Source: Clostridia bacterium (GTDB lineage Bacteria; Bacillota; Clostridia; Oscillospirales; Acutalibacteraceae). From it: a DNA stretch of 64,000 bases. The stretch lies in NCBI GenBank assembly GCA_017521425.1, contig JAFXCQ010000012.1:62001-126000 (forward strand). Direction: 5' to 3'. Below, piece by piece: positions 3,352 to 44,741 of the stretch; the first letter of the stretch is position 1, and each line of letters begins with the position of its first letter. The translations under genes and the position numbers were made by a program. Under the pieces are notes generated by a model, which saw nothing but the letters and a program-made list of their open reading frames with translations, was not told the DNA's origin and searched no databases.

Positions 3352-3361
3352 CTTATTTTAC

Positions 3362-6683: not shown

Positions 6684-6688
6684 AAATT

Positions 6689-8071: not shown

Positions 8072-8825
8072 TAATTATAAATTTATTGAGAAATCAAACC
8101 TTCCACAAAATAAAGTTTGCCACTGTATTTTAGGCGAAAATTCGCTGAAGACAATATCATTCTTAAATAAAATGGGTATTAAAACCCTTGTAACCCAAAA
8201 ATCAAAAAAATTAGATGACGAAATCGCTTTTCATGCAGATACTCAGGTAATTTATTGTGGCAAAAATACTGCGATTATTTCGCCAAATCAAGTGGATTTA
8301 ATAGAAAAGGTTAAAGAAATAGGGTGTAGGGTAGAAGTGGCTGAAAACGAACCATTCTCGCCATATCCACACGATATTTTACTCAATTTCACTATTATAA
8401 ATGATACTATAATCGGTAAATTTGATTCTGCATCAGAAAAATTACTCAAATTAATTGAAATAAATAATTTAAAGTGTATCAATACCAAACAAGGATATTC
8501 AAAATGTTCAATTTGTGTAGTTAATGAAAATGCAGTAATTACAGAAGATAATGGTATTGCAACTTTGTTAAAAAAATCACAATTTGATATTTTAAAGATT
8601 GAATCCAATTTTATAAACTTGTCAAATAGACATTACGGTTTTTTAGGTGGTGCGTCTGGCAAGCTATCAGATGATACTATTTACTTTAATGGTAACATAG
8701 AAGAACACCCAAGCTATAAAGATATTAAAAAGTTTTTAGATTATCACAATGTTAAACCGATTTATGATAAATCTTATAAACTTACTGATATTGGTTCAAT
8801 TATACCTATAACTGAACAAATTTAA
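8064..8825 (+). CDS. Uncharacterised protein, probable GME/pentein-fold (DUF6873-like)
   Basis: This is a 253-residue soluble protein with no signal peptide. The alternating short strands, the HDILLNF segment and the C-terminal GGASGKL remind me of clostridial proteins annotated as DUF6873, a guanidino-group-modifying-enzyme (pentein) fold. I cannot confirm this by eye, and no function is claimed. The start is the ATG at 8064, which overlaps the radA stop. Codons further upstream belong to radA's frame. It is the last gene of the run, followed by a hairpin with a T-run. Confidence 0.55.
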   Translation: MHNNYKFIEKSNLPQNKVCHCILGENSLKTISFLNKMGIKTLVTQKSKKLDDEIAFHADTQVIYCGKNTAIISPNQVDLIEKVKEIGCRVEVAENEPFSPYPHDILLNFTIINDTIIGKFDSASEKLLKLIEINNLKCINTKQGYSKCSICVVNENAVITEDNGIATLLKKSQFDILKIESNFINLSNRHYGFLGGASGKLSDDTIYFNGNIEEHPSYKDIKKFLDYHNVKPIYDKSYKLTDIGSIIPITEQI

Positions 8826-8843
8826 GTCATTTTACACAAACTT

Positions 8844-8872
8844 AAAAAATTTCAATCGAATAGAAATTTTTT
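8844..8872 (+). terminator. Hairpin at the end of the radA run
   Basis: AAAAAATTTC (8844-8853) and GAAATTTTTT (8863-8872) form a perfect 10-bp stem with a 9-nt loop, and the 3' arm itself ends in six T. It lies 18 bases after the stop of the preceding gene. The stem is weak, with A/T pairs except one. Confidence 0.55.
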
Positions 8873-8910
8873 GAATGAATAAACACCTAATGCCCAAAAT
8901 TTCCATTCGA
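8856..8910. repeat. Inverted repeat competing with the 8844-8872 hairpin
   Basis: TCGAATAGAAATTTT (8856-8870) and AAAATTTCCATTCGA (8896-8910) are complementary at 14 of 15 positions, with a 25-nt spacer. The left arm overlaps the loop and 3' arm of the terminator-like hairpin, so the two structures exclude each other. This is the geometry of an attenuator/antiterminator pair. The right arm lies just upstream of the ribosome binding site of the 39-residue peptide. Confidence 0.45.
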
Positions 8911-8928
8911 TGAGAAAGGTTGATAAAT

Positions 8929-9048
8929 TTGAAAAATTCAAAGAATCCTGAAAAAAATACTGCTGCAAAGCTTGGTTACACAGCTACAATGGTTGTAGTT
9001 TCAGTTGCAATCTTAATTTGTATGAAAAAATACAAAGATAAAGATTAA
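8929..9048 (+). CDS. 39-residue single-pass membrane peptide
   Basis: A TTG start at 8929 is preceded by GAAAGGTTGAT. The reading frame gives a hydrophilic N-terminus (KNSKNPEKNTAAK), one hydrophobic segment (about residues 16-31, ATMVVVSVAILICM) and a basic tail (KKYKDKD), with TAA at 9046-9048. The layout (charged start, one membrane span, positive C-terminus) supports a real small protein. I do not recognise a family. It could be a toxin-like or membrane-accessory peptide, or a small sporulation-type protein. Confidence 0.5.
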   Translation: MKNSKNPEKNTAAKLGYTATMVVVSVAILICMKKYKDKD

Positions 9049-9224
9049 ATCAATTATGTAACAAGATTTATGGTTTAAACAATTTTAAAATCATTTCTTA
9101 ACTGAAACATATTTATAAAGTAGCGAAAATACCAGAAATCTTAATATATAAGGATATTTATGGATGTACCTTAAAACTCGTAAAAATTCATATTTTAGCC
9201 ATTTTTTATCCACAACCCCTTACC

Positions 9225-9258
9225 CGACTTATACAAAATCTTTCTTTTGTATAAGTCG
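9225..9258. promoter_or_regulatory. Perfect palindrome with Xer-site geometry
   Basis: CGACTTATACAAAA (9225-9238) and TTTTGTATAAGTCG (9245-9258) are perfect 14-bp inverted arms around a 6-bp centre (TCTTTC). The inner 28 bp have exactly the 11-6-11 layout of dif sites. The element is 41 bp before a tyrosine recombinase gene, and no T-run follows on either strand, arguing against a terminator. A perfect DnaA-box 9-mer (TTATCCACA, 9206-9214) lies just upstream, which may be chance. The rest of 9049-9299 shows no further feature. Confidence 0.45.
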
Positions 9259-9299
9259 ATATATAAAAAATAAAACAAAGGAATTGGTACCCTTTACTT

Positions 9300-10319
9300 A
9301 TGAAACGAGAAAATTTCGACTTATTACCACCTATTGTGGTAGAATTTTTGAATTATTATAGTGTTATAAAAAACTGTTCCGAATTAACAGTTAATGAATA
9401 TGCTAATGATTTGTCTACATTTTTCAAATACATAAAAATTATTCGCGGACTTGTCACAAAAGAAGTTCCATTTGATGAAATTGTTATTTCAGATATTTCA
9501 TTAGATTTAATTTCTTCTGTATCTTTAAATGATGCTTATATGTATCTTACGTATTGTAAAATTAACAGAAACAACAATGAACGCACTCGTTCAAGAAAAG
9601 TTTCTACATTAAGAGCATTTTACAAATATCTGACTGTACAGAAAAAGTTTATTAAGGACAATCCCCTTCAGGAACTCGAATCACCAAGAATTAAAAAGGC
9701 TTTACCTAAATATCTTACATTAGAAGAAAGTCTTTCACTTTTAAATTCTGTTGACGGCAAGTTTAAAGAACGTGATTATTGTATTATAACATTATTTTTA
9801 AACTGTGGACTTCGTCTTTCTGAGCTTGTATCGCTTAATTTAAGCGATATTCGTTCAAATAACACCCTTACAGTTACTGGTAAAGGTAATAAAGAACGTA
9901 CAATTTACTTAAATGATGCCTGTGTTGACTCAATTAACGCCTACTTACCTGTCCGTCCTGTTGATGGTGTAAAAGATAAAGATGCGTTATTTATAAGCAG
10001 ACAAAAAGGTAGAATTAGCCCTAAAACTGTTCAGTATGTTGTTAAATCTACTTTAGAAAAAGCAGGTCTTTCTGACAGAGATTTATCTACTCATAAATTA
10101 AGGCATACTGCAGCAACTCTTATGTATCAACACGGTAATGTTGATGTGCTTTCAATTAAAGAGATTTTAGGTCACGAAAATCTTAACACAACCCAGATTT
10201 ACACTCATATTGTTGACGAACAATTGAAAAGTGCTGCTGAAGCAAACCCATTAAGTAGTGTTAAAGCACCACGACAAACAAAAATTGAGAGTATTAAAAC
10301 CGAAGAATCAGACGAATGA
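9300..10319 (+). CDS. Xer-type tyrosine recombinase
   Basis: This is a site-specific recombinase with an N-terminal SAM-like core-binding domain (about 10-115) and a C-terminal catalytic domain. The catalytic residues are R172 (GLRLSEL), K195 (GKGNKER), H265 and R268 (HKLRHT), H292 (LGHENL) and Y301 (QIYTHI). Xer enzymes resolve chromosome dimers at dif with FtsK, and an FtsK/SpoIIIE gene is in this window. At 339 residues it is longer than XerC/XerD (about 300), with an N-terminal insertion, and closer in size to single-enzyme systems such as XerS. No good ribosome binding site lies within 12 bases of the ATG (AAAGGA is 17 away). The last 12 bases overlap the convergent spoIIM-like gene. Confidence 0.85.
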   Translation: MKRENFDLLPPIVVEFLNYYSVIKNCSELTVNEYANDLSTFFKYIKIIRGLVTKEVPFDEIVISDISLDLISSVSLNDAYMYLTYCKINRNNNERTRSRKVSTLRAFYKYLTVQKKFIKDNPLQELESPRIKKALPKYLTLEESLSLLNSVDGKFKERDYCIITLFLNCGLRLSELVSLNLSDIRSNNTLTVTGKGNKERTIYLNDACVDSINAYLPVRPVDGVKDKDALFISRQKGRISPKTVQYVVKSTLEKAGLSDRDLSTHKLRHTAATLMYQHGNVDVLSIKEILGHENLNTTQIYTHIVDEQLKSAAEANPLSSVKAPRQTKIESIKTEESDE

Positions 10320-10934
10320 AAATAATCCCCCGAATATTTTAAAACTTACAGTATTTAATACTGCCGCTAAAATGAATGGCACACATAAAACGATATATTT
10401 AATACAATATTCCTTTAATTCATTCGTTCTTGTTGTTCGATTCCCACCAATTATCATATAGATAATTTCAACTGACATATTTATAGATTCATTACAACAT
10501 TTTAACAATGTTCCTATAACTATTGCAACACTTGGCATAATTACAAGTGCGCAGTATCCAAGTCCTTGTAAGGTGTACTGTGAATATAAAATACCAGTTG
10601 CCATACCTACAACAATTCCAACAAATGTAGGTATGGCAATAATTATTGGTCCTCCTACTGCACATAAACCCAAAATAAAAGTAAAAAACGGAATTGTAAA
10701 TGTGAGTATTGAACTATCTAAAAGACATTCTAAAATTGAAATTGCATTTTTACGAGATATGTAATTAACAAAAAAAGTTTTTAAAACATTGTTTAACTCT
10801 GTGTTATCATCTTTTATTGTTAAAATACCTAATATCAATCCACAAAAAAATAATGAAAAAAAGAAAAAATTCCTGTAATCGAACTTTGGTAAATTCATTT
10901 TTCTTCTCTTTAAAACAACAGCCTTTTTAAACAT
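10308..10934 (-). CDS. spoIIM: SpoIIM family membrane protein
   Basis: At 208 residues it is close to Bacillus SpoIIM, with an N-terminal membrane segment (FFFFSLFFCGLILGIL), a central block of hydrophobic segments and a terminal one ending GGLF. SpoIIM is part of the SpoIIDMP complex that remodels septal peptidoglycan so the mother-cell membrane can engulf the forespore. It has an AGGA site eight bases from its ATG, and is the last gene of the queA-tgt-yajC-TIGR04086 run. Its 3' end overlaps the convergent recombinase gene by 12 bases, with no visible terminator between them. Confidence 0.75.
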   Translation of the reverse strand: MFKKAVVLKRRKMNLPKFDYRNFFFFSLFFCGLILGILTIKDDNTELNNVLKTFFVNYISRKNAISILECLLDSSILTFTIPFFTFILGLCAVGGPIIIAIPTFVGIVVGMATGILYSQYTLQGLGYCALVIMPSVAIVIGTLLKCCNESINMSVEIIYMIIGGNRTTRTNELKEYCIKYIVLCVPFILAAVLNTVSFKIFGGLFSFV

Positions 10935-10950
10935 AGTAAAATCCTCGCTT

Positions 10951-11367
10951 TTAATATCTCTTTTTTTTATTTGAGTTTACAATGCCACCAATAGTACCAC
11001 CAATTATGCAAATCATCGGGCATATTAAACTGAAAATTGATAAATTTTTAAATGTAAATATAATCAAAATAATGTAGGTAAACAAAGCAACAGGTAAGGC
11101 ACCTAATGTACCCGTTAAAATTCCCCTGCCACCCACTTTTTTATGTGTCGAGTTACCAGATATAAACCCTCCAAAAACTAAAAATAAATAACTAAGAAAA
11201 TAAATAATACTTGAATGCTCCGATAACTTATAATATGCAAAACTCAGGACAAGTATACCAACCACAATAATAATAAAACCTTTTAAAAAGCACGGAAAAT
11301 ATCTAAAAAACAACTTTATTCTTTTTGAATCTTTTTTATTTAGTTTGACTTTGTTATATTCAGACAT
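10951..11367 (-). CDS. TIGR04086 family membrane protein
   Basis: This 138-residue protein has four hydrophobic segments (about 25-47, 55-73, 88-108, 112-132) and the glycine-rich FLVFGGFISGNSTHKKVGGRG-type core seen in TIGR04086/YrzE-like proteins. The function is unknown. In many clostridia this family sits between yajC and the scfA/scfB (SCIFF) genes; here yajC is present, but spoIIM follows instead and I find no six-cysteine SCIFF peptide. Its GGAGG ribosome binding site lies inside a hairpin arm. Confidence 0.75.
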   Translation of the reverse strand: MSEYNKVKLNKKDSKRIKLFFRYFPCFLKGFIIIVVGILVLSFAYYKLSEHSSIIYFLSYLFLVFGGFISGNSTHKKVGGRGILTGTLGALPVALFTYIILIIFTFKNLSIFSLICPMICIIGGTIGGIVNSNKKKRY

Positions 11368-29646: not shown

Positions 29647-31182
29647 TTAAGATTTTAATATCATTGATTTCTTATTATTTTCACTACCCCAGATTATTTC
29701 TAATTCTAACGGGATATTTGATTTAAAGGTAATTTCTGGCTTTTCGTCTTGCGATTTTCTTTCATCACAAATTAAAGTAAGCTCGCCATCAGTTTTAAAT
29801 GGATATTGCTCTATACCATGTTTTTCAAGAAGTGTAACATCCCATATAATTTTGTTGCTACCTGCATCTGGTTTTACACCAAACACAAACTCAAAAAGAA
29901 TTGATATTGGTGAAATACCAGTCCAACCAACAAAATCTTTCATAGCAGGTTTACCTTGTGATGGTCTGCCGTTGTTTACAAACTCAGGTGCATAGTTTTC
30001 AAATACAGTATTAGTATCTTTAAAAACTTCAACAACTGCATAAAGATGTTCCATTGCTATTATGTGTGAAAGGTCATATTTCTTGTATTTATCAAGACCT
30101 TTTAAAATCATATAGTTAGTTGGTGCCCAGACACCACCGCACCAATAACCACCTGTGCTTTCATACTCTGAATTATTCTTTTCAAGGCAAGGCACTCTGT
30201 TTGGTGTTTTAAAGAGTTTCTCATCATCTAATGTGCTAATAAATCTTTCGGCTCTGTCATCAGGAACAGTTTCGGCAAGTAAGTTCCAGAAAGCACCTGC
30301 ATGGTGAACAAAATTAAACTCACCATTTTTCCAGAGGTCATAATAAAAGCCAGTTTCTTCATCCCAGAGTTTTTTGTTTATAACATCAAAAAGAAGCTCT
30401 GCTTCATCATCAAGTTCTTTAATATACTCATTTTTACCGAGTGTTTCAGCCATTTTAATTAAAACTCTGCAATCATAAAGTGCCTGAGCACAAGCATCAA
30501 CCCAAATCATATGACCATGGCTGAATGGCTCTGAATAACCTTTTTGTTGTCGTGGCAAATTATCCATACCACAACCCCAACCACTTGAAAAATATGTGCC
30601 ATCAGGCCATGTATGAGTCTGTCTTAAAAATCTATGATAAGAAAGAAGAACCGGAAAAACTCTTTTTAATCTTTCTATATCACCAAAATTCAAGAAGTAT
30701 TCCCATTCACACCAAGCCATAATTTCAGGACCTGTCGCAGATGGATCCCAACGAGTAAACATATCTTTACCAGTTACTGCATCAATCTGACGACAAATAA
30801 AACCGTCATCGTGCTGATGTGAATAAAAATTATCAAGTGTACCCTGAAATTTAAAAATTCTGTCGGCATATTTGCCAAACATCAACATAAAAACAGAGTC
30901 CCACATAAAAGTACAACCATCAAAAGCTGTATCAATAAAATTTGAAACAAAGCCCGTATTTTCATGCGGTCTTCTCAAATTTTTAAAAGCAAGTTCCCAG
31001 GCTCTCCAATAGCAGTCAATATAATCTTTGTGATTATCCCAGATTGGTTTAGGTAACTTATCTTTTGATTCAGCAAAAGTTGGTAGTTCTTCTGTGCTCA
31101 TTGGTTGGTCGATAAATGTATTCTCGATTACAGGAATAAATTCATCTAATATTGTCATTTCACTTTCTTTATCAAAACCCAT
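29647..31182 (-). CDS. Cytoplasmic GH63/GH37-like glycoside hydrolase
   Basis: This is an (alpha/alpha)6-barrel hydrolase of the MGH1/GH63/trehalase type: FMWDSVFMLMFGKYAD, the catalytic acid region WGCGMDNLPRQ, GGYWCGGVWAPTNYM and the base region TVFENYAPE are all recognisable. There is no signal peptide, so the substrate is probably an imported or intracellular glucoside or mannosyl-glycerate-like compound. The ATG at 31182 has TCGGAGA eight bases upstream and is preferred over the ATG at 31212, which would overlap hisF. It lies inside the histidine operon, 16 bases after hisF and 12 before hisIE. Confidence 0.8.
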   Translation of the reverse strand: MGFDKESEMTILDEFIPVIENTFIDQPMSTEELPTFAESKDKLPKPIWDNHKDYIDCYWRAWELAFKNLRRPHENTGFVSNFIDTAFDGCTFMWDSVFMLMFGKYADRIFKFQGTLDNFYSHQHDDGFICRQIDAVTGKDMFTRWDPSATGPEIMAWCEWEYFLNFGDIERLKRVFPVLLSYHRFLRQTHTWPDGTYFSSGWGCGMDNLPRQQKGYSEPFSHGHMIWVDACAQALYDCRVLIKMAETLGKNEYIKELDDEAELLFDVINKKLWDEETGFYYDLWKNGEFNFVHHAGAFWNLLAETVPDDRAERFISTLDDEKLFKTPNRVPCLEKNNSEYESTGGYWCGGVWAPTNYMILKGLDKYKKYDLSHIIAMEHLYAVVEVFKDTNTVFENYAPEFVNNGRPSQGKPAMKDFVGWTGISPISILFEFVFGVKPDAGSNKIIWDVTLLEKHGIEQYPFKTDGELTLICDERKSQDEKPEITFKSNIPLELEIIWGSENNKKSMILKS

Positions 31183-31198
31183 AAATATTTCTCCGAAA

Positions 31199-31957
31199 TT
31201 ATAATCTGACATTTATTTTATTCTCTTTTAAGAGCTTTTTCAAGTCTTTTATTTCTACTTCTCCAAAATGGAAAATTGAAGCAGCGAGACCTGCATCTAT
31301 TGTAGGAATTTCATTAAACAACTTAACAAAATCTTCACTACAACCAGCACCACCAGAAGCAATTACAGGTACATTAACTACATCACAAACCGCTTTGAGC
31401 ATTTCTATATCAAAACCATTTTTAACACCATCAGTATCAATTGAATTAACAACAATTTCACCTGCACCGTTATTAACACCTTTTTTTATCCATTCAATAG
31501 CGTTTATACCTGTATCTTCCCTGCCACCTTTTGCGAACAAACGGAATCCGCCATCTACTCGCTTAATATCACAAGAAAGAACAACACATTGGTCACCATA
31601 TTTTAATGCTGCTTCTTTAATTAAATCAGGATTTTTTATTGCACCTGAATTTACACTTACTTTATCTGCGCCACATTTTAAAACGCGATCAAAATCATCG
31701 ACTGTATTTATACCACCACCAACTGTAAGCGGAATAAATATTTTTGATGCTACTTCAGTTAAAATATCGGTAAAAAGTTGTCTTCCTTCAAACGAAGCAG
31801 TTATATCATAAAAAACAAGTTCATCTGCACCAGCATTACTGTAGTATTCTGCAAGTGCAACCGGTGAAGAAACATCTGAAATACCTTCAAAATTAACACC
31901 TTTTACAACTCTGCCATTTTTAACATCAAGGCACGGAATAATTCTTTTTGTAATCAT
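31199..31957 (-). CDS. hisF: Imidazole glycerol phosphate synthase, cyclase subunit
   Basis: HisF joins PRFAR with ammonia delivered from HisH to form IGP and AICAR. It is a half-barrel repeat protein with catalytic Asp residues in [12 protein letters not shown] (D11) and [10 protein letters not shown] (about D130), and phosphate loops GGGINTVDD and [10 protein letters not shown]. Its 252 residues are typical. It overlaps hisA by four bases. Confidence 0.98.
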
Positions 31958-34945: not shown

Positions 34946-36219
34946 TCTTTTTCAAACCTTATAGTTGTACTTTTTGCGTGCGCACCTAATCCTTCACTTT
35001 CTGCAAAGTAAGCAACATCATCTTTAACCTTTTCAAGTGCTTCTGCTGTGTAATATGTATATTGAGTTTTCTTAACAAAATCATCAACAGACAACGGACT
35101 TGAGAACTTTGCAGTACCACTTGTTGGTAATGTGTGGTTAGGACCTGCATAGTAGTCGCCCAATGCTTCAGGACAATTCTTACCCATAAATATTGAACCT
35201 GCATTATCTATTAAGTCAAGATAATCAAAAGGATTGTCAACACAGATTTCAAGGTGTTCAGGTGCAATTTCGTTAGCGATTTTAACCGCTTCTTCTATTG
35301 AAGATGAAACAATAATTTTACCATTGTTATCAATTGATGCTCTAGCAATTTCTGCTCTTGGTAATAGTGGAATTTGTCTTTCTAATTCTTCTATTACCTT
35401 ATCTGCTAATTCGTTACTATCTGTAACTAAAACTGCACTTGCCATTTTATCATGCTCTGCTTGTGAAAGCAAATCTGCTGCAACATTTTTTGCTTCACAA
35501 GTACCATCTGCAATAACAAGAATTTCAGAAGGACCTGCAATCATATCAATTGAAACCATACCAAACACTTGTTTCTTTGCTTCTGCAACAAAAGCATTAC
35601 CCGGTCCTACAATTTTATAAACATTCGGAACACTCTCTGTACCATAAGCTAAAGCTGCAACCGCCTGTGCACCACCCAACTTAAAAATTCTGTCAACTCC
35701 CGCAATTTTTGCCGCCGCTAAAATTACGGGGTTGATTTTACCATTACTATCAGGTGGTGAAACCATAATAATTTCTTTACACCCCGCAAGCTTTGCAGGA
35801 ATTGTATCCATTAACACAGTTGAGGGATAAGCCGCTGTGCCACCAGGTACATAAACACCAACTTTTTCAATTGGTGTAACCTTCTGACCAGTTACAATGC
35901 CTTTTTTATTATTTATAATGAAGCTTGTGCGAACCTGATTTTTGTGAAAATCTTTAATATTTTCTGCCGCAGTTTTAATAATTTCAATAAAACGAGGTTC
36001 AACGTTGTTAAAAGCTTCTTCAATTTCTCTTTCTGTTACTTCTAATGAAGTAAGCTTTGCTTTATCAAACTTTTCACAGTACTCAAAAAGTGCTTTGTCA
36101 CCATTTTCTTTAACATTTTTAATTATATCAGCAACAATATCTTCTACCGAAGAAGTTGGCTCAAAACGAGCAAATATTTCTTCATTTGAAACTTCGCCAA
36201 ATTTATATTTTTTAATCAT
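34942..36219 (-). CDS. hisD: Histidinol dehydrogenase
   Basis: HisD is a zinc enzyme that oxidises histidinol to histidine in two NAD-dependent steps. Conserved blocks are VYVPGGTAAYPSTVLM, VGPGNAFVAEAK, DMIAGPSEILVIAD, LLSQAEHD and GPNHTLPTSGTA. Its 425 residues are typical. Its start shares a base with the hisG stop. Confidence 0.98.
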   Translation of the reverse strand: MIKKYKFGEVSNEEIFARFEPTSSVEDIVADIIKNVKENGDKALFEYCEKFDKAKLTSLEVTEREIEEAFNNVEPRFIEIIKTAAENIKDFHKNQVRTSFIINNKKGIVTGQKVTPIEKVGVYVPGGTAAYPSTVLMDTIPAKLAGCKEIIMVSPPDSNGKINPVILAAAKIAGVDRIFKLGGAQAVAALAYGTESVPNVYKIVGPGNAFVAEAKKQVFGMVSIDMIAGPSEILVIADGTCEAKNVAADLLSQAEHDKMASAVLVTDSNELADKVIEELERQIPLLPRAEIARASIDNNGKIIVSSSIEEAVKIANEIAPEHLEICVDNPFDYLDLIDNAGSIFMGKNCPEALGDYYAGPNHTLPTSGTAKFSSPLSVDDFVKKTQYTYYTAEALEKVKDDVAYFAESEGLGAHAKSTTIRFEKE

Positions 36220-36872
36220 TATTTGTCATCCTTTGATTTTTTCTCTTCTACTTGTAATGCTAACGCATTTTTAATATTATTGATTTCTTCATTTTTAAAT
36301 TTAAGACTTGCTTTATTTGAAATAAGTCTTGCACTTATTGGCACAATTGTTTCAATTGGCTCAAGATTATTTTCAATAAGTGTTTTACCTGTTTCAACAA
36401 TATCTACAATAACATCTGAAAGTCCTAAAATTGGTGCTAATTCAATTGAACCATTGAGTTTAATAATATCAATATCTCTACATTTTTCACCATAAAAAGT
36501 TTTTGCTATATTAACAAATTTTGTAGCAACTCTTAAGGTTTTATCAGTATCATCTCTGAAATCTTTGTGAGCGGCTACTGCCATTCTGCATTTGCCTAAA
36601 TCTAAATCAAGCATTTCATAAACATCTGGCTCATACTCTAATAAAATATCTTTACCAGCAACACCTATATCAGCAGCCCCTCGTTCTACATAAATTGCAA
36701 CGTCAGATGGCTTAACCCAGAAGAAACGAACACCTGTTTCTTCATTTTCAAAAATAAGTTTACGGGTGTTTTCTTTAATAGAAGGACAAGAGTATCCAGC
36801 TTTTTCAAACATATCATAAACCTTTTCACCAAGTCTGCCTTTCGGGAGAGCAACATTAACTATTTGTTTCAT
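36219..36872 (-). CDS. hisG: ATP phosphoribosyltransferase, short form
   Basis: HisG performs the first, feedback-regulated step of histidine synthesis. It has ALPKGRLGEK at the N-terminus, ERGAADIGVAGKD and the PRPP-site region LGLSDVIVDIVETGKTL. At 217 residues it lacks the C-terminal regulatory domain of long HisG and therefore needs HisZ, which is directly upstream and overlaps it by four bases. Confidence 0.97.
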   Translation of the reverse strand: MKQIVNVALPKGRLGEKVYDMFEKAGYSCPSIKENTRKLIFENEETGVRFFWVKPSDVAIYVERGAADIGVAGKDILLEYEPDVYEMLDLDLGKCRMAVAAHKDFRDDTDKTLRVATKFVNIAKTFYGEKCRDIDIIKLNGSIELAPILGLSDVIVDIVETGKTLIENNLEPIETIVPISARLISNKASLKFKNEEINNIKNALALQVEEKKSKDDK

Positions 36873-37975
36873 ATTTCTTCCACCCTTTCTGCAGTAATCT
36901 TAAATGCTTTACGATATTTAATATTTTCTGGAATTTCATTCTGTACTAAAACCGATGAATTTTCTTTCTTCAATTCTGAAACACATTTTGAAATAACAAA
37001 AATATCATCCGTATCATTTTTCAATAAAACATAGTCAACGTCATACTCTTTGTCAGTATTATTAAATCTCTGTAATAAATCAAGATAAACCGCAAAGCCG
37101 ATTGCTTTATCTTTCCTGTTCATTTTGAGCATTAAATTATCGTACTGACCACCTGAAAGAATACTTGACGGAATTTTGTTTACATATCCTTGGAAAACAA
37201 CTCCGTTATAATAATTCATATTATTTACAATTGAAAAATCTATGTTAATTTTGTCTGCGTAACCGCTATCACAAAGGAATGTTAAAATCTCTTTAAAGGT
37301 TTTAAGGTGAGCTTTTTCGTTGTATGTAACACAAAGTTTTTCCAATTTTTCTATTACATTTTCGTATTTACCATTTATTGTAACGAGTGAAACAATTCTG
37401 TCTGCATCTATTTTCTCTTCTGCACAAATTTTTTTAATTTCATCTGTATTCTTTTCGCCGATTGCTTTTAGAATTTTTTGATTTTGCTGAGAATCAAGTC
37501 CTGCATCAGAAAGAACCGAAAGAATAATATCCATATAAGAAATATCTAAAATGAAATCATCAGTAATCTCTTCAAGGCTCTTTAATGCAAGTAAAACAAC
37601 CTCTGCAACCTCGTAAGTGCCAATGTTACCAATGCACTCAAGACCAGTCTGCATTATTTCACGGAATTCTTTATTACCCTTAGTTGTTCTGTAAACATTC
37701 TCGTCGTAATAAACCTTTTGAATTTTTTCGCCACAATCTTTTGAATTTTTAATAATAGATAAAGTAACGTCAGGTTTTAAAGCAAGTAATTTACCAGAAC
37801 CATCTGTAAAAGTAATAACTTCATTTGAAACTAAAAAGTCCTTATTTTTTACATATAAATCATATTCTTCAAATTTACTCATTCTAAATTGCTTGAAGCC
37901 GAATGAACTGTAAAGAGAACGCAAAGAAAAAACTGCTTTTTCATCGCCTCTTATAATATCTGACTGGAAATTCAT
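36869..37975 (-). CDS. hisZ: HisZ, regulatory subunit of ATP phosphoribosyltransferase
   Basis: HisZ is a catalytically inactive relative of histidyl-tRNA synthetase that forms a complex with short HisG and confers histidine feedback. The class II-like parts LYSSFGFKQFRMSKFEEYDLY, ALKPDVTLSIIKN and VYRTTKGNKEFREIMQTGLE are recognisable, while the anticodon-binding domain is reduced. The start at 37975 follows GAGGAGAAATAAT; an ATG at 37990 overlaps that site. It begins one base after the yerC stop. Confidence 0.9.
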   Translation of the reverse strand: MNFQSDIIRGDEKAVFSLRSLYSSFGFKQFRMSKFEEYDLYVKNKDFLVSNEVITFTDGSGKLLALKPDVTLSIIKNSKDCGEKIQKVYYDENVYRTTKGNKEFREIMQTGLECIGNIGTYEVAEVVLLALKSLEEITDDFILDISYMDIILSVLSDAGLDSQQNQKILKAIGEKNTDEIKKICAEEKIDADRIVSLVTINGKYENVIEKLEKLCVTYNEKAHLKTFKEILTFLCDSGYADKINIDFSIVNNMNYYNGVVFQGYVNKIPSSILSGGQYDNLMLKMNRKDKAIGFAVYLDLLQRFNNTDKEYDVDYVLLKNDTDDIFVISKCVSELKKENSSVLVQNEIPENIKYRKAFKITAERVEEI

Positions 37976-37976
37976 A

Positions 37977-38270
37977 TTATTTCTCCTCATTCTTAATTCT
38001 GTCGATTACAGTTTTATAACCATTGTTACCATACATAAGGCACTTATTTACTCTGCTTATAGTTGCAGAGCTTGCACCGGTTTCTTTTGAAACCTGATTA
38101 TAATTAAAACCATCTGAAAGTTTTAAAGCAACATCAAATCTCTGTGCCATATCCTGTAACTCTTTAATTGTGCAGACATCCTCTAAAAATGCGTAACACT
38201 CTTCTTCTGTCTCTAATTTTAATAAACCTTTTACTAAAGTATCTACTGATTCTGAATGAAATTTATTCAT
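37977..38270 (-). CDS. yerC: YerC/YecD family TrpR-like regulator
   Basis: The 97-residue protein is related to the Trp repressor, with helix-turn-helix FNYNQVSKETGASSATISRVNKCLMYGNNGY and the upstream CTIKELQDMAQRFDVALKL. YerC has been proposed from comparative genomics as a histidine regulator (HisR) in Firmicutes, and its position as first gene of the his operon supports that. I use the ATG at 38270 rather than the TTG at 38282, since it fits the family and has GGTGAAAG in front. Confidence 0.88.
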   Translation of the reverse strand: MNKFHSESVDTLVKGLLKLETEEECYAFLEDVCTIKELQDMAQRFDVALKLSDGFNYNQVSKETGASSATISRVNKCLMYGNNGYKTVIDRIKNEEK

Positions 38271-38300
38271 AACTTTCACCAAAACAAAATATTTCCTTTC

Positions 38301-38360
38301 AATAGTATTCTTTTACCGTTTAACAGTTTATCACTTTACTCTGTTAAAGTCAATACTATT
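38301..38360 (-). promoter_or_regulatory. Operator region and promoter of the histidine operon
   Basis: The promoter (minus strand) is TTGACT at 38353-38348, 17 bases, TAAACT at 38330-38325. Nested inverted repeats surround it: TTTAACAG (38319-38326) with CTGTTAAA (38341-38348), and AATAGTATT (38301-38309) with AATACTATT (38352-38360). On the plus strand TTTAnC units recur every 7-8 bases from 38312. This is a plausible YerC/HisR operator overlapping both promoter elements. The remaining upstream stretch (38361-38546) shows nothing I can name. Confidence 0.55.
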
Positions 38361-38546
38361 TTATAACAAATTCTCATTTTGTAAAAATTTATAAACCTAA
38401 CAATCTAACAAGAGCATATTTATGCAGTTTAACAACAGAAAATCAGGTGTTGCGATACATTTAATTATTGTAAAACTCAAAACAACAAATACACTTCGCG
38501 ATGATTTAATTTACAACAATCGATTGGTATATCATTGTAAAAAACT

Positions 38547-38608
38547 AACTCCCACTACTCGCGGGCGACCACAGGTCAGCCCCTACGATTGTGGGAGTTA
38601 ATTTTTTC
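38547..38608. repeat. GC-rich nested palindrome acting as terminator
   Basis: AACTCCCAC (38547-38555) and GTGGGAGTT (38591-38599) enclose a second hairpin, GGGCGACC (38563-38570) with GGTCAGCCC (38574-38582). T-runs follow on both strands (TTTTTT from 38603 on plus; TTAGTTTTTT on minus). It can end the minus-strand acyltransferase transcript. The GC-rich core stands out from its AT-rich surroundings and resembles dispersed clostridial palindromes of the GGGCGACC...GGTCGCCC type. Confidence 0.6.
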
Positions 38609-38622
38609 ATTTCACTTAAAAT

Positions 38623-38820
38623 TTATTTTTTTAATAACAAAAGCAATAACATAGTTATCGATGCAATACCAACTAAAACGCAGGTAATTAAAACAATCAT
38701 AAAAAGCTTATTCCCTGCTTGCATTAACTTGTTACCAAAATTAAACCATAAACTAAAACTACTTATAATTGTAAAAACACATAAAAATATCATAGTCTTT
38801 TTATTTTCAAATATTTTCAC
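38623..38820 (-). CDS. 65-residue two-span membrane protein
   Basis: A GTG start is preceded by AGGTGAT. There are two hydrophobic segments (about 9-28 and 39-62) joined by a short loop (FGNKLMQAGNK), ending in KK. No family recognised. It follows the acyltransferase by 13 bases and is followed by the 38.55-kb hairpin, so it is probably the third gene of the GH3 unit. An opposite-strand frame over the same bases has no good start and is dismissed. Confidence 0.6.
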   Translation of the reverse strand: MKIFENKKTMIFLCVFTIISSFSLWFNFGNKLMQAGNKLFMIVLITCVLVGIASITMLLLLLLKK

Positions 38821-38833
38821 ATTATCACCTATT

Positions 38834-40249
38834 TTAATATTCTGCTAATTCTTTAATTTTCTCTGCCAATAAACCAAAGAAGTTTTCGAGCATTTTTTTA
38901 TCTTCTTCATTACCTACTGAACAAATTGAAAGCTGAAGATTTCCATTTATTGTTAAAGCGGTCATCATAGCACAAGGCTTTTTCTTTGCCGCACCTGCAA
39001 CTGCGGCACCAATTGGTTTATTGCCATTCAAAGAAAGTGACTCTAAATCCATTTTTCCAACATTACTTATTGCTAAATTTGCATTGTTGTAAAAAAGACC
39101 AACAACAATTTCTGCCTGAGCATAAACCATAGTAGTGTAACCAATATTAAGAAGTGGCAAACCGTGAAGTCCCATAAATTTATCTTCTTTATTCTTTTTA
39201 TTACACTCTACAACCTGTTTTAAAATATCAAAAATATTTTCGCCTTTATTTTCAACTATACAAGGCATAAAAGTTGTGTGGTTTGTGTAACCCGTTCTGT
39301 TTATGTTTTTTATGTATCTTCTTAAATCAACTGCACAAGAAATACCAACGCGCTCATTTTCCGGTAAATTGCAGATATCATAAACAGCACCGATATATGC
39401 AGTAGCAATCAAATCATTTACAGTGCCTTCATATTTTTTTACTGTTTCTCTTGCTTTGTTAAAAACTGAACTTGGCACACTTTTTCTTACTATGAATTTA
39501 TTATCATTTTCATTTTTTTCTGTAAATGGTAAGGTGTGTTTGTCGTGTGGTGAAACACCTGCAAATTGCGATTTTGCCTTTTTCTTGTCAGACTCATTAA
39601 AATCATCATAAACACATTTATAAGAACGCGAACCCTTTCTGAAATCAAGTGGCATAGTTTTATTTTCAATATATTCATTATAATTTCTAAATAAATCGCT
39701 AACAAAATGCTTGTAATCACCACCATCAACAAGCATGTGATTCCATCTGAAACAGAGTTTAGACTCTCTTTTATTTATTAAAAGAGCGACTTTAAACTGC
39801 ACATTACTTGTAACAGGAATATCTTTTAATAAAAATTCATCGGCACTTTTTAAAAAGTCGTCAGTATCAAATACAGTTAAAACTTCGTCAATATGGTAAT
39901 CGCACACTTTCCAATATGGTGCGATGTGGTTATCTATAAACTGTGAATGGAAAACAGGTGCACTTTCAAAAATGCAGATTAAAGCATATTTTAATGCGTC
40001 AATATCAGGAACAAAATCGTAATCAAGCTCAAAACGTGCAATTCTGTCCATATATCTTCTACACATATAATTAACTTTATCGTACATTTCAGATTTCAAT
40101 TTTTTAGGAACAACGAAATTTTCTATTATTTCTTTTTCAATTAAAGAAATAATTAAATTCTCGTCGTTAAGTCCCCTGCTTTTCAATTGATTAAATCTGT
40201 TTTCAATAAATTCTTTTTTATCATTATATTTTTCAAATAATTCTGTCAT
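38834..40249 (-). CDS. Condensation-superfamily acyltransferase
   Basis: The 471-residue protein has the active-site motif HxxxDG at H171-M-L-V-D175-G (RWNHMLVDGGDYKHF), as in NRPS condensation domains, PapA, wax-ester synthases and alcohol acetyltransferases. The second half has EGTVNDLIATAYIGA and RVGISCAVDLRRYI, typical of PapA/WSD-like enzymes. No carrier protein domain is attached. It would move an acyl group from a thioester to an alcohol or amine; the substrates are unknown. It sits 12 bases after the GH3-like gene with a clear AGGAAG site. Confidence 0.8.
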   Translation of the reverse strand: MTELFEKYNDKKEFIENRFNQLKSRGLNDENLIISLIEKEIIENFVVPKKLKSEMYDKVNYMCRRYMDRIARFELDYDFVPDIDALKYALICIFESAPVFHSQFIDNHIAPYWKVCDYHIDEVLTVFDTDDFLKSADEFLLKDIPVTSNVQFKVALLINKRESKLCFRWNHMLVDGGDYKHFVSDLFRNYNEYIENKTMPLDFRKGSRSYKCVYDDFNESDKKKAKSQFAGVSPHDKHTLPFTEKNENDNKFIVRKSVPSSVFNKARETVKKYEGTVNDLIATAYIGAVYDICNLPENERVGISCAVDLRRYIKNINRTGYTNHTTFMPCIVENKGENIFDILKQVVECNKKNKEDKFMGLHGLPLLNIGYTTMVYAQAEIVVGLFYNNANLAISNVGKMDLESLSLNGNKPIGAAVAGAAKKKPCAMMTALTINGNLQLSICSVGNEEDKKMLENFFGLLAEKIKELAEY

Positions 40250-40261
40250 TATAACAACTTC

Positions 40262-41953
40262 CTATATTGTATGTGAGAAAAAGAATTCCTTTTTCATTTC
40301 TGTATCAATAAGCTTAATTGGTTTAATCTGGTTAAGATTAGCACCGTTCTGCCTTAAAACTTCTCTATAAGCATCATAAGTGCCTTTTTTAAGTAATTTA
40401 ACTTCACACTCACCTAACGCACCGCTTTTAATAAGTGGTTCAACAGAAACATTTCCTTTATAAAGTTCTTCTGTAAAAATTCGTGACAATTCTTTTTCTT
40501 TGTTTTTATCAAAAATATTTTCTGTTTCAACTAACAAAACATAATGCCCTGGTGAAGTTTCTCTGTCAGGATAAATTGAATACCCAATAAATAATTCATT
40601 TATTCTATTAGAAAAATTATCAATTATTTCGTCAAATGCCAATGAATTTATTTTTTCACCACTTATATTGGCTATCTGATTTTTTCTGTAACAGAAAGTT
40701 ACTTTTGGTGACTCATGGTAAAATCCCGTTACTTTTATCACATCTTCAATTTTGTATCTGTAAAATCCACTTAAATTAGTTAAAATTAATTCGTACTCTT
40801 TACCAACCTCAACATCTTTAATTGTAAGTGGTTTTGTATTTTCGTCTGAATCAATCGGTAAAAACTCATAAAAACCATTCTGTGGTAACATAACATATTC
40901 AAAAGAATCAAGTTCAATCGGCACCGCCATCATCGCTTCGGTTGCAACATAACCTAAATAATGAATAGGCATATCTTCACCTATGTATCGTTTAAGCTTC
41001 TTTGCGTAGAGTGAAAGTGAACCTGTACCCATACCATACATCCACTCACATTTTTTCCAGATTCGCGGTACAATTGGAGAAACATCAAAGCCCTTTTTAA
41101 ATTCCTCACGTAATTCATTTGCTCTCTTGGGATTTGGTTTAACTTTTTTTGAAAGTATTTTTCTTAACTCGTCAGGCATTTTAATATTTTCGTTTATTGT
41201 GCCTTTTTCTATATCGTTACAGAACATTTCCCAATTGTTTTCCAAGTAGAAAAACATTGATTCAAGAGTTGTTATGAAAATAGTACCGACATAGCTTACA
41301 TTTTTATCTTGTAAAGCAAAACGAAGTTTTAAATAATGCATATCTGCATCTAAATAATCGTTATGAAACATAACCTCTGGTGGAGTTGTATTAAAAAATC
41401 TTACAAGAGGTTTTAAATTTAAAAGTGGAATTGAAGAAAGACAGCTTACAGTACCACCTTTTAATTTTTTAGCACCAACCTCTGCAGTTAATAAACCGCG
41501 TTGCGGTGGAATAATTCTACCCTTACTTTTAAAATATTTTACTGCACAACCAACAGGTGCGCTGAAACTGAAGCATTGACAAGTCCACTCTGCGAAAGCT
41601 GAAAGTGGTACCAATTTTGAACGTCCGGTACTACCTGAGCTTTCAGTAAATCTTCTTACAAATCTGTTTGTTATAAGACCTTTTTCACCTTTATGAGCCA
41701 TTCTCATAACATAATCTTCATAATCTAAATAATCTGAAAATGGTACTATCTCCTGATAATCATTTATAGATTTAACAGCTTTAAAATTATTTATTTTGCC
41801 GTATTCAGTAGTTTTATTATCTTTCATTAGTTTCAATAAAACTTTTTCTTGTTTTTTTATAGCATTTTTTGAATATAAAAATAATTTAATATGTTCACAG
41901 ACACCTAAAAAAGCACCGAACAATGCTAAAATTTGTCTAAATAAGTTGCCCAT
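40262..41953 (-). CDS. GH3-family acyl-adenylating (acyl acid amido synthetase-like) protein
   Basis: The 563-residue member of the plant auxin-responsive GH3 superfamily has the adenylate P-loop RRFTESSGSTGRSKLVPLS (about 101-118), GMGTGSLSLYAKKLK, LGYVATEAMMAVP and the hinge YRYKIEDVIKVTGFYHESPKVTF...NISGEKIN. Plant GH3 enzymes adenylate carboxylic acids and conjugate them to amino acids; bacterial members are largely uncharacterised. The start is the ATG at 41953 with GGAG eight bases upstream; a GTG at 41962 overlaps it. It is first gene of a three-gene unit with an acyltransferase and a small membrane protein. Confidence 0.85.
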   Translation of the reverse strand: MGNLFRQILALFGAFLGVCEHIKLFLYSKNAIKKQEKVLLKLMKDNKTTEYGKINNFKAVKSINDYQEIVPFSDYLDYEDYVMRMAHKGEKGLITNRFVRRFTESSGSTGRSKLVPLSAFAEWTCQCFSFSAPVGCAVKYFKSKGRIIPPQRGLLTAEVGAKKLKGGTVSCLSSIPLLNLKPLVRFFNTTPPEVMFHNDYLDADMHYLKLRFALQDKNVSYVGTIFITTLESMFFYLENNWEMFCNDIEKGTINENIKMPDELRKILSKKVKPNPKRANELREEFKKGFDVSPIVPRIWKKCEWMYGMGTGSLSLYAKKLKRYIGEDMPIHYLGYVATEAMMAVPIELDSFEYVMLPQNGFYEFLPIDSDENTKPLTIKDVEVGKEYELILTNLSGFYRYKIEDVIKVTGFYHESPKVTFCYRKNQIANISGEKINSLAFDEIIDNFSNRINELFIGYSIYPDRETSPGHYVLLVETENIFDKNKEKELSRIFTEELYKGNVSVEPLIKSGALGECEVKLLKKGTYDAYREVLRQNGANLNQIKPIKLIDTEMKKEFFFSHTI

Positions 41954-41982
41954 AAAATACACTCCACAAAATTTATTAACTA

Positions 41983-42011
41983 ATTATAAAATAAATGCGA
42001 AAAAAAGGCAA
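41983..42011 (-). promoter_or_regulatory. Promoter of the GH3-acyltransferase unit
   Basis: On the minus strand TTGCCT (42011-42006), 17 bases, TATAAT (41988-41983). Confidence 0.6.
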
Positions 42012-42020
42012 TATTTTTAT

Positions 42021-42051
42021 AAAAAATAAACCGACTGCTTCCAGTCGGTTT
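42021..42051 (-). terminator. Terminator after the PspC gene
   Basis: AAACCGACTG (42028-42037) and CAGTCGGTTT (42042-42051), loop of four, then ATTTTTTAT on the minus strand. Confidence 0.85.
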
Positions 42052-42064
42052 AAAGTCAGAAAAA

Positions 42065-42262
42065 TTAAACATCTTCTTCATCAGGAAAAATAAAAGCACA
42101 AATTAAATACGCTAAAAGTCCTGAACCAAATACAAAACTTAAAAATACCCAGATTAATCTGATGTAGGTCGGGTCTGTATTAAAATACTGTGCAATACCA
42201 GTGCAAACACCACAAATTTTTTTTCCTTTTTTAACTTTACATAAACGTTTCTTTTCTTCCAT
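42065..42262 (-). CDS. PspC-domain membrane protein
   Basis: The 65-residue protein consists of one PspC domain: KRLCKVKKGKKICGVCTGIAQYFNTDPTYIRLIWV, a hydrophobic segment with FGSGLLAYLICAFIFP and an acidic end. PspC domains occur in envelope-stress systems, but stand-alone short versions are common in clostridia with no known role. It has its own promoter and terminator, so it is monocistronic. Confidence 0.88.
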   Translation of the reverse strand: MEEKKRLCKVKKGKKICGVCTGIAQYFNTDPTYIRLIWVFLSFVFGSGLLAYLICAFIFPDEEDV

Positions 42263-42283
42263 ATTAACACTCCCTTTAGTAAA

Positions 42284-42312
42284 AATATATTACTAATTGA
42301 GTGTTTTGTCAA
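42284..42312 (-). promoter_or_regulatory. Promoter of the PspC gene
   Basis: On the minus strand TTGACA (42312-42307), 17 bases, TATATT (42289-42284). No clear terminator separates it from the upstream clpC stop. Confidence 0.6.
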
Positions 42313-42329
42313 TACACTTATCAAAAAAA

Positions 42330-44741
42330 TCACTTTAAAATATATTTTTTATTCCTGTAATCACATATATATTCTTTTTTATTTAATTCACCTAAAAGTA
42401 TTTTTTCTGAAAGCATATCTTCAATTTCAGAAGTAATTAAACGGCGCAAAGGTCTTGCACCATAAACCTTATCAAACCCATTTTCAGATAATTTAGAAAT
42501 TACATTATCCGTAAATTCAATTTCAATATTTTTTTCATTCAATCGTTTTTTTACATTTTTTAACAGATTATTTGTAATTTCTTTAATTTCATCTTTGGTT
42601 AATAAATCAAAGACAATCAATTCATCAATTCTGTTTACAAGTTCAGGTTTAAAGGTCTTTTTCACTTCTTCAATGACCAATTTCCTGTTTTTTTCATTTC
42701 TCTCATTTTCGTTATTATCATCGGAAAATCCCATTGAACCTTTATTACTTGAAATAAGCGAAGCTCCTATATTTGATGTCATAATAACAACCGTATTTTT
42801 AAAGCTTACCTTTCTGCCATTAGAATCAGTTAAAACACCATCTTCTAATATTTGTAATAATAAATTAAAAATATCTGCATCAGCTTTTTCAATTTCATCA
42901 AATAAAACTATTGAATACGGTCTTCTTCTTACTTTTTCTGTTAACTGGCCACCCTCATCAAATCCAACATAACCTGGTGGTGAGCCAATAAGTCTTGAAA
43001 CAGAATGTTTTTCCATATATTCTGACATATCTATTTTTATTATTTCACTGTCATTTCCAAAAAGACATTCTGAGAGCGCTTTTGTCAATTCTGTTTTACC
43101 TACGCCTGTAGGACCTAAAAACAAAAATGAGCCTATTGGTCTTTTGGGGTCTTTAAGGCCCGCTCTGCCTCGTCTTATTGCTCTTGCAACAGCTTTTACC
43201 GCCATATCCTGACCAATAATTCTTTTGTGAAGCTCTTCTTCTAAATTTAAAAGCTTTTCACTCTCTTCTTCTGTGATTTGAGTAACAGGAATTTTTGACC
43301 ACATTGAAACAATTGATTTGATGTCATCTTCAGTTACAAAAAGCTTTTTATTTTTTATTTTTTCAAGCCATTTTTGTTTTTTTATTCTGAAGTCAGTATT
43401 TAAAGTTTTTTCTTCATCTCGTAAATGTGCAGCTTTTTCAAAATTCTGATTTGATATTGCGTTATTTTTCGCAGTTGTTTTTTCTTTTATTTTTTCTTCA
43501 AGTATTTTTAATTCTTCGGGTAAAGTATAGCTTTTTAATTTTACCTTTGCAGATGCTTCATCTATTAAATCAATCGCTTTATCTGGTAAAAACCTGTCTG
43601 TTATATACCTTACACTTAAATTTAACGAAGATGAAATTGCTTCATCTGTAATTATTACACCGTGATGCTTTTCGTAATATGATTTAATCCCATAAATCAT
43701 TTCTTTAGCGGCTTCAATAGACGGTTCATCAACTGTTATAGGTTGAAATCTTCTTTCCAGGGCCGCATCTTTTTCAATATATTTTCTGTATTCTTCTATA
43801 GTTGTAGCACCTACTACCTGAATGTCGCCACGCGCTAATGATGGTTTTAATATATTTGCAGCATCAACTGCACCCTCGGCAGAGCCTGCACCAACAATAT
43901 TATGAAGTTCATCTATAAATAAAATAATATTTTTATCTTCAATAACTTCATCAATTATATTTTTAATTCTTTCTTCAAAATCTCCGCGGTATTTTGTACC
44001 CGCAACCATACAAGTCAAGTCTAATGAAATTACTCTTTTATCTTTTAAGCTTTCGGGTACTGTGCCATTCGCAATTTCTAAAGCAAGACCCTCTGCTATT
44101 GCAGTTTTACCAACCCCCGGCTCACCAATCAAACACGGGTTATTTTTCGTTCTTCTTGAAAGAATTTCAATCACCCTTTCAATTTCATTATCCCTTGCAA
44201 TAACGGGGTCTATTTCGCCATTTTTAGCACTTTCAGTTAAATCCTTTCCGTATTTATCTACGAGAGATTTACTATCTTTAGAATTTATTTGAGTTTTTTT
44301 ATAATCATTATGATTTATTTCATTTGAAACATCTGTTGTTATTTCGTAAGGACTTACACCTAAAGCGCTTAAAATTTTGCACCCCGCACTCTGCGGCTCT
44401 TTTAATAATGCAAATAATAATTGCTCTGTACCTGCACCTGATTTTTTTGTTGCACTGTTTAATGCATTTTCTATAACCTTTCTGCATTTAGGTGTAACAT
44501 CTTCAGGTGAAAGAGATGTAGGAATACCAACACCAATACTTTTTTTTATTTGCTCTTCAACCTTTTTAAAATTTATTTTTTTAGACAAAAGAATTGAAGC
44601 AGCAACTGTTTTTGTATCAGAAAGTAACCCTAATAAAATATGTTCACTGCCAATGTATGTGTGGCCCAAATTCTCTGCTGCTTCAACAGCAAAATTCAAA
44701 GCATTATTTGCACTCTCTGTAAACCCTGTAAATTTATACAC
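42330..44741 (-). CDS. clpC: Clp protease ATPase subunit ClpC
   Basis: This is a Hsp100 unfoldase feeding ClpP. There are two ClpN repeats (about 1-145), AAA1 with Walker A GEPGVGKT, a UVR-type middle segment (NAISNQNFEKAAHLRDEEK), and AAA2 with GPTGVGKT, giving 803 residues as expected for ClpC. A GTG start at 44741 has TAGGAG upstream. It lies 11 bases after spoIIE, with none of the usual ctsR-mcsA-mcsB genes, so its transcription appears tied to the spoIIE promoter. Confidence 0.95.
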   Translation of the reverse strand: MYKFTGFTESANNALNFAVEAAENLGHTYIGSEHILLGLLSDTKTVAASILLSKKINFKKVEEQIKKSIGVGIPTSLSPEDVTPKCRKVIENALNSATKKSGAGTEQLLFALLKEPQSAGCKILSALGVSPYEITTDVSNEINHNDYKKTQINSKDSKSLVDKYGKDLTESAKNGEIDPVIARDNEIERVIEILSRRTKNNPCLIGEPGVGKTAIAEGLALEIANGTVPESLKDKRVISLDLTCMVAGTKYRGDFEERIKNIIDEVIEDKNIILFIDELHNIVGAGSAEGAVDAANILKPSLARGDIQVVGATTIEEYRKYIEKDAALERRFQPITVDEPSIEAAKEMIYGIKSYYEKHHGVIITDEAISSSLNLSVRYITDRFLPDKAIDLIDEASAKVKLKSYTLPEELKILEEKIKEKTTAKNNAISNQNFEKAAHLRDEEKTLNTDFRIKKQKWLEKIKNKKLFVTEDDIKSIVSMWSKIPVTQITEEESEKLLNLEEELHKRIIGQDMAVKAVARAIRRGRAGLKDPKRPIGSFLFLGPTGVGKTELTKALSECLFGNDSEIIKIDMSEYMEKHSVSRLIGSPPGYVGFDEGGQLTEKVRRRPYSIVLFDEIEKADADIFNLLLQILEDGVLTDSNGRKVSFKNTVVIMTSNIGASLISSNKGSMGFSDDNNENERNEKNRKLVIEEVKKTFKPELVNRIDELIVFDLLTKDEIKEITNNLLKNVKKRLNEKNIEIEFTDNVISKLSENGFDKVYGARPLRRLITSEIEDMLSEKILLGELNKKEYICDYRNKKYILK

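Follow-up and report, generated by a model that had tools for sequence, protein, structure and literature searches.

Two adjacent genes in a stretch of 64,000 nucleotides from the genome (2.35 Mb in 33 contigs) of a Clostridia bacterium of the Acutalibacteraceae (positions 62,001 to 126,000 of contig JAFXCQ010000012.1, assembly GCA_017521425.1; this whole stretch is called the window) encode a GH3-family acyl-adenylating amide synthetase and a stand-alone acyltransferase with an HxxxDG motif. These genes form a conserved, co-inherited two-gene unit. The two enzymes almost certainly work in one pathway, and the pair looks like a new variant of the recently described bacterial aminolipid pathway OlsH-OlsI.

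A conserved and co-inherited gene pair

Both genes lie on the minus strand. The GH3 gene (40262..41953) encodes 563 residues from an ATG at 41953 that is preceded by GGAG; with a GTG start, its open reading frame (ORF) would span 40262-41962 (566 residues). The gene for the 471-residue acyltransferase (38834..40249) follows after 12 bases, and an ORF of 65 residues comes 13 bases further on. The sequence-only reading, made from the DNA letters alone, had proposed a GH3 enzyme followed by an HxxxDG acyltransferase at these coordinates and spacings, all of which are correct.

To describe the relatives, L numbers are used for fetched genomic stretches and G numbers for genomes of the genus. Nearly all relatives are metagenome-assembled genomes, many of them incomplete, and the genus, species-collection and family sets overlap in many shared contigs. 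A total of 34 distinct pairs were found, including that of the window, with GH3 just upstream of the acyltransferase in all of them, so the proposed search for both families in the same order across genomes had a positive outcome. Of the 18 genus regions fetched, 16 show the two genes side by side, the exceptions being L031, where GH3 lies at the contig end, and L037, which has a GH3 fragment. Counting the window, the pair is present in 17 of 22 genus genomes; G015 has GH3 at a contig end, G013 has a contig-end acyltransferase (by coordinates that of L095), and both genes are absent from G001, G003 and G021 (3/22).

When the acyltransferase alignment was run against the species-genome collection, 243 relatives were found, of which the best 80 were kept; L166 was left out of these since no acyltransferase ORF was called. 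Among the 33 acyltransferases of this best 80 that score at least 612 bits, 31 have GH3 upstream (gaps of -53 to 45 bases, and 239 in L104), and in the remaining two, 80 and 2 bases separate the start from the contig end. This 612-bit line between two acyltransferase clades was drawn after the scores had been seen, the next score below it being 554. The same acyltransferase type occurs in six of 200 family genomes, with GH3 alongside in all six. In the sampled genomes, a lone gene of the pair was met at contig ends only. The titles of the best 80 relatives name Clostridia, Oscillospiraceae, Ruminococcaceae, Eubacterium and similar groups, with no more than Firmicutes or Bacillota in three cases, and a ruminant gut sample is named in the titles of 20 of the 33 closest.

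In a tree with 46 other Clostridial GH3s, the 34 paired GH3s group as a single clade (Shimodaira-Hasegawa-like approximate likelihood ratio test 100). The tree was built by a quick method with a midpoint root and has several long branches; rows below 250 bits or 480 residues were left out, as was L087, whose GH3 was lost by the ORF filter. Pairwise distances of GH3s and acyltransferases correlate with r = 0.85, a value that was reached in none of 2000 permutations. Common descent alone would produce such a correlation, and therefore it shows co-inheritance, not contact. The ratio of nonsynonymous to synonymous substitution rates (dN/dS) against three relatives is 0.03-0.06 for GH3 and 0.06-0.07 for the acyltransferase, and both genes are under purifying selection.

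The catalytic residues are retained as well. In GH3, the S-S-G-S-T-G of motif I (residues 108-113) and its Lys (116) are identical in all 34 pairs. Motifs II and III were scored by residue columns, because regular expressions missed nine rows, including that of the window. The Tyr of motif II is identical in 34/34 and its Glu in 33/34, with Asp in the remaining one; in motif III, S-G-F-Y-R-Y, I and Asp are identical in 34/34 and Glu in 32/34. The acyltransferase keeps N-H-M-x-x-D-G-G and S-N-V-G unchanged in all 34; the HxxxDG motif of the window, HMLVDG (39722..39739, minus strand), belongs to the former, with N170, H171, M172, D175, G176 and G177 each identical in 34/34. The adenylate loop and the HxxxDG motif are therefore intact, as the sequence-only reading had described. 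That reading had also named lost adjacency in related genomes, or lost catalytic residues in homologues, as what would speak against it; the adjacency is conserved and the residues are in place.

The pair occurs in at least seven kinds of genomic setting across lineages, according to our reading (Pfam matches for some, the rest by eye). These include clpC with histidine genes, an aldehyde dehydrogenase together with a PolC-like gene, this combination plus flavin and iron-sulphur oxidoreductases, an acyl-CoA-ligase-like gene and a ligase-condensation-carrier cassette, besides others. A comparison with possible empty sites within the genus covered 13 stretches beyond clpC, two of which (L256 and L260) barely extend past that gene, and gave no match to YerC, histidine genes or GH3.

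Enzyme families and gene neighbours in relatives

GH3 enzymes adenylate an acid, an amine then attacks, and an amide is formed. The window enzyme passes all three GH3-family domain models (PF03321, PF23571 and PF23572), with 234.9 bits for GH3, 92.8 for GH3_M and 56.1 for GH3_C against a cut-off of 23.6 bits each, and it very probably forms an amide. Its matches among solved sequences, which include those of a profile search, are ten plant GH3s, with JAR1 entries best (E 4.7e-48). It shares the GH3 domains and nucleotide-binding motifs of such plant amido synthetases, and its motif I, SSGSTGRSK (41615..41641, minus strand), aligns with SSGTSQGRPK of JAR1. The plant enzymes act on hormones and have no paired acyltransferase. 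JAR1 differs in carrying W336, a residue of the jasmonate pocket (PMC12493201), where the window enzyme has Met.

Judging from weak Pfam similarity, the acyltransferase is a divergent HxxxDG enzyme that probably belongs to the chloramphenicol-acetyltransferase-like superfamily. Condensation is its best model in the Pfam scan, in which no alpha/beta-hydrolase model appeared at E≤0.1. Among 20 aligned members, matches at E≤0.1 were to Condensation (17), WS_DGAT_C (6), PapA_C (4) and AATase (3); one member reached 32.8 of 310 bits with the wax-ester synthase model. The 20-member profile, compared with solved chains, placed bacterial peptide-synthetase condensation structures first (best E 0.0004). 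The HxxxDG motif is also shared with the O-acyltransferases of the WS/DGAT, PapA and alcohol acetyltransferase types, to which some members are weakly similar; the window enzyme itself gives sub-cut-off matches alone.

The other 46 loci analysed belong to a sister clade (ACYLTRANSFERASE), with acyltransferases of 41-47% identity. No GH3 was found within the fetched stretch at any of these 46 loci. Instead, a membrane protein of about 260-310 residues is encoded directly upstream in 46/46, with an overlap of 1-50 bases. An example of this sister pair lies at L130:5204-7275, and the one membrane protein of this kind that was scanned has no Pfam match at E 0.01. One sister-clade member scores 46 bits with Condensation (PF00668; cut-off 30.6). 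The acyltransferase of the window has an N-terminal extension (40112..40210, minus strand, bounds set by eye) that resembles the N-terminus of the sister clade's membrane partner: a profile built from the latter gives 16.1 bits for the first 70 residues of the acyltransferase, compared with 10.6 for the best of 714 controls. With the same profile, 22 of 34 paired acyltransferases exceed the best control and seven give no match. When the window's own genome was searched, the sister enzyme matched the window acyltransferase alone, and the sister membrane protein gave no match in a search run without a positive control. Paired and sister acyltransferases also occur together in one genome, namely L122 with L128 (Firmicutes ADurb.Bin300) and L105 with L156 (RGIG4739).

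Gene neighbours were counted if they lay on the same strand, no more than 150 bases and three genes away. An AMP-ligase, carrier, lipase or aldehyde dehydrogenase was found at 10 of 33 paired loci versus 0 of 46 sister-acyltransferase loci, a contrast that is biased upward because the queries came from paired loci; L103, whose cassette had been masked by an overlapping ORF, makes it 11 of 33. Genes resembling AMP-forming acyl-coenzyme A (CoA) ligases stand behind the pair in L106, L107, L123 and L124. The ligases of L106, L123 and L124 have both AMP-binding domains by Pfam, and that of L107 was placed by clustering. For the ligase of L066 (same contig as L124), long-chain fatty-acid-CoA ligase models are best, at scores below their cut-offs. 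A lipase is found near the pair in L100 and L102, and an aldehyde dehydrogenase in L112, L114 and L116; only these three were counted because the six-locus aldehyde dehydrogenase cluster is mixed. In L028, a gene of this cluster adjoins an inositol-dehydrogenase-like gene (by eye).

In L067, L100 and L103, genes for an AMP-ligase, a condensation enzyme, an acyl carrier, GH3 and the acyltransferase follow one another in this sequence, with gaps below 40 bases or overlapping start calls; the assignment is based on Pfam for L067 and on clustering plus translation for L100 and L103. Taken together, the neighbours in relatives suggest fatty-acyl chemistry in some of them.

A candidate aminolipid pathway and its alternatives

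OlsH forms N-acyl-ornithine from a free fatty acid and ATP, and a separate O-acyltransferase acts next (PMC12493201, also the source of the other statements on this system). This OlsH-OlsI route to ornithine lipid was published in 2025 for Singulisphaera acidiphila and is encoded in one operon in planctomycetes. The OlsH tree contains five Firmicutes sequences, and the authors suggest that different amino acids may be used by the GH3s of non-planctomycete bacteria; homologues of GH3 are widespread in bacteria, and it is asked there what the others make. The window pair resembles this system in a GH3 enzyme of the type that starts from free acid and ATP, in a separate acyltransferase encoded nearby and in the retained nucleotide-binding motifs. 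It differs in that OlsI is an alpha/beta-hydrolase and the window partner an HxxxDG enzyme, and the hosts of OlsH-OlsI belong to another phylum. Membership in OlsH itself was rejected, the window GH3 scoring 53.8 bits against the equivalog cut-off of 620 of NF052613; all 19 aligned GH3 members (A2) match this model at E≤0.001, with a best E of 3.2e-27.

We tentatively propose, with somewhat less than even confidence, that the pair converts a free fatty acid into an N-acyl amine or N-acyl amino acid, which it then acylates. In the first step, GH3 would adenylate a free carboxylic acid, for which a fatty acid is the likeliest candidate. Independently of CoA and of any carrier, it would then transfer the acyl group to the amino group of a small amine or an amino acid, to give the N-acyl product. 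In the second step, the acyltransferase would move another acyl group from acyl-CoA or acyl-carrier protein (ACP) onto that product, giving a diacylated aminolipid or an esterified fatty amide. A fatty acid is probably the acid used, because lipid-type neighbours occur in relatives. Acylation of the GH3 product by the partner has about an even chance, and the HxxxDG partner is the likeliest second acylating enzyme. For comparison, the OlsB-type model Acetyltransf_5 (PF13444) of the canonical ornithine lipid pathway has one match elsewhere in the genome (28.3 bits, cut-off 22.4), which covers positions 1-76 of 102; the model also matches in E. coli.

A second relevant system is the NRPS-like one for fatty-acid amides of gut Clostridia, in which an adenylation enzyme (A) loads the fatty acid on an ACP and a condensation enzyme (C) joins it to an amine (PMC13142362, also the source of the statements below on this system). 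It is likewise found in gut Clostridia and combines a fatty acid and an amine by free-standing enzymes, one of them with HxxxD. In its C enzymes, the last position of HxxxDG is reported to be Ala in 36% and Ser in 42%, and D or H precedes the His. The cassette immediately in front of the pair in L067, L100 and L103 consists of the same set, A, C and ACP, and shares the layout of these systems. The window unit has GH3 in place of A, ACP and C, and within 36000-44500 the ORFs scanned or inspected include no free-standing A, ACP or C proteins. The earlier suggestion of a carrier-free pathway fits the window but is qualified by the cassette of those three relatives. The term GH3 is absent from the accessible text of this preprint.

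Several observations weigh against the proposed synthesis and acylation of a fatty amide. The acyltransferase of the window scores 18.4 bits with Condensation (PF00668), below the cut-off of 30.6, and Pfam and NCBI model scans placed it in no acceptor-specific family above cut-off. No lipid gene is recognised in the window neighbourhood (clpC, pspC and the histidine operon), 22 of 33 paired loci have no lipid-type neighbour, and the upward bias of the neighbour contrast points the same way. GH3 of any kind was found in 23 of 200 family genomes and 20 of 291 class genomes (19 above cut-off), and the partner adjoins GH3 in just three of the 50 GH3 regions fetched from these samples. The condensation enzymes of the three cassettes carry the canonical HHxxxDG, versus mostly Ser or Ala in the last place in the fatty-amide enzymes (PMC13142362). 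The Met at the position of JAR1 W336 is also listed here, although it speaks neither for nor against a fatty acid.

Unlikely, though ahead of the other alternatives, is a soluble product: GH3 would conjugate an aromatic or short acid (for example, phenylacetate or indole acetate) with an amino acid to give a signal or a detoxified conjugate, which the acyltransferase would cap or esterify, and no membrane lipid would arise. Aromatic acids are abundant in the gut. In addition, the solved GH3 matches are all plant enzymes with JAR1 best, and for the one neighbouring aldehyde dehydrogenase scanned (L021, on the contig of L112) the top model is benzaldehyde dehydrogenase MdlD, at 409.7 bits against a cut-off of 550. 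These points are opposed by the long-chain-like ligase (below cut-offs), the lipase and the fatty-amide type cassette beside relatives, as well as by the fatty-acid substrates of the only experimentally studied bacterial GH3 among the papers found (PMC12493201). It is improbable that GH3 only activates the acid, as adenylate or thioester, for the acyltransferase to use in making a single ester or amide. The fixed order, the tight spacing and the assignment of both proteins to acyl-transfer families would agree with such a couple; however, GH3 enzymes finish the amide themselves (established enzymology; PMC12493201), and four relatives retain GH3 despite an acyl-CoA-ligase-like gene just behind the pair.

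Very improbable is an adjacency of purely historical or regulatory origin, with the enzymes serving separate pathways. The sister clade, which occurs without GH3 and in 46/46 loci behind a membrane protein, would favour this and indicates that GH3 is not in itself a requirement of the acyltransferase. It is opposed by the failure to see the two genes apart in the sampled genomes except at contig ends, the number of settings in which they stay together, their correlated distances and their shared absence. Still less credible is the three-gene system of the sequence-only reading, in which the small membrane protein would anchor or export the product. Its gene (38623..38820, minus strand) has the same orientation, the short gap and coding-like substitutions against L096 on its side (dN/dS 0.18, with 0.55 against L098), and it is probably coding. 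By tblastn over all loci fetched up to that search, it was found beside three close relatives only, namely L095 (98%), L096 (77%; same contig as L025) and L098 (41%; same contig as L032), plus duplicates, and neither at L097, which has the same genomic setting, nor at the other fetched loci. By this distribution it is classed as an accessory, dispensable and lineage-specific addition, and its lack of conservation led to rejection of the trio.

If the second step of the proposed N-acylation and acylation route is indeed an acylation, the HxxxDG family would join the PlsC-like, PF19576 and alpha/beta-hydrolase enzymes described as aminolipid O-acyltransferases (PMC11631085 and PMC12493201). The sequence-only reading held the exact system to be undescribed; the GH3-HxxxDG pair is described in no title or shown abstract among the open-licence papers listed, and the near precedent OlsH-OlsI had been missed. 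Among the papers found, only one bacterial GH3 pathway has been worked out (PMC12493201), and the pair offers a defined two-gene case. Moreover, the genomes with the pair are related to gut Clostridia, from which fatty amides acting on host receptors have been reported (PMC13142362). It is possible, rather than likely, that gut Oscillospirales possess a further independent route to acylated aminolipids, built from a plant-type GH3 and an HxxxDG enzyme, convergent with OlsBA, OlsF and OlsH-OlsI, and joined in some lineages to a fatty-amide assembly line that makes host-receptor ligands. If this is true, one locus would make fatty amides and then acylate them further.

Flanking elements and other GH3 genes

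Upstream of the unit lie clpC, pspC and a terminator-like site (42027..42052, minus strand; an 11-pair stem followed by a T run) that parts the unit from the upstream genes. A transcript start at the unit is plausible because this site lies just upstream. The promoter that the sequence-only reading placed at 41983..42011 (minus strand) exists as a sigma-70-like consensus match (TTGCCT-17-TATAAT, 10/12); alone it means little, because the region holds 27 such matches compared with 22.2 (sd 5.3) in shuffles. The hairpin that it took as the other boundary (38547..38608, no strand) does fold strongly (-38.1 kcal/mol, z -8.0). The palindrome at 38540-38612 is, however, one of 27 matches in its own genome (itself included) on both strands, and a dispersed repeat of this kind was rejected as a boundary proper to the unit. 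Beyond it follow a TrpR-like regulator, hisZ (Pfam) and more histidine genes (hisG and hisD by eye). Three further 31-residue matches to the small membrane protein (E 0.004; L005, L097 and L023) were dropped, as they lie on the opposite strand and, in L023, inside clpC.

Other GH3 genes have different surroundings. Alpha/beta-hydrolase-like genes stand beside GH3 in five of 27 unpaired family regions; as counterparts of OlsI they are suggestive, but they were not accepted, the family being expanded, with 5-17 matches in 17 of 20 genomes. In L070, L075, L078, L081 and L082, the protein beside GH3 is a large, hydrolase-like member of this family whose N-terminus looks like a signal by eye, and the neighbour in L075 has an alpha/beta-hydrolase match. 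In L068 and L072, GH3 genes of another clade lie beside condensation enzymes with S-HxxxD-A. The L072 region (2258-11314) also contains an AMP-ligase-like gene and a 1376-residue protein that starts like an AMP-ligase; carrier, reductase and iron alcohol dehydrogenase parts come after that (by eye). Tandem GH3 pairs occur in L208, L209, L210, L214 and L218, with ABC-transporter-like proteins (by eye) adjoining them in L208 and L209. In the window itself, a glycosidase gene (MGH1-like/trehalase, 29647-31212) lies on the same strand directly after the presumed end of the histidine operon (by eye).

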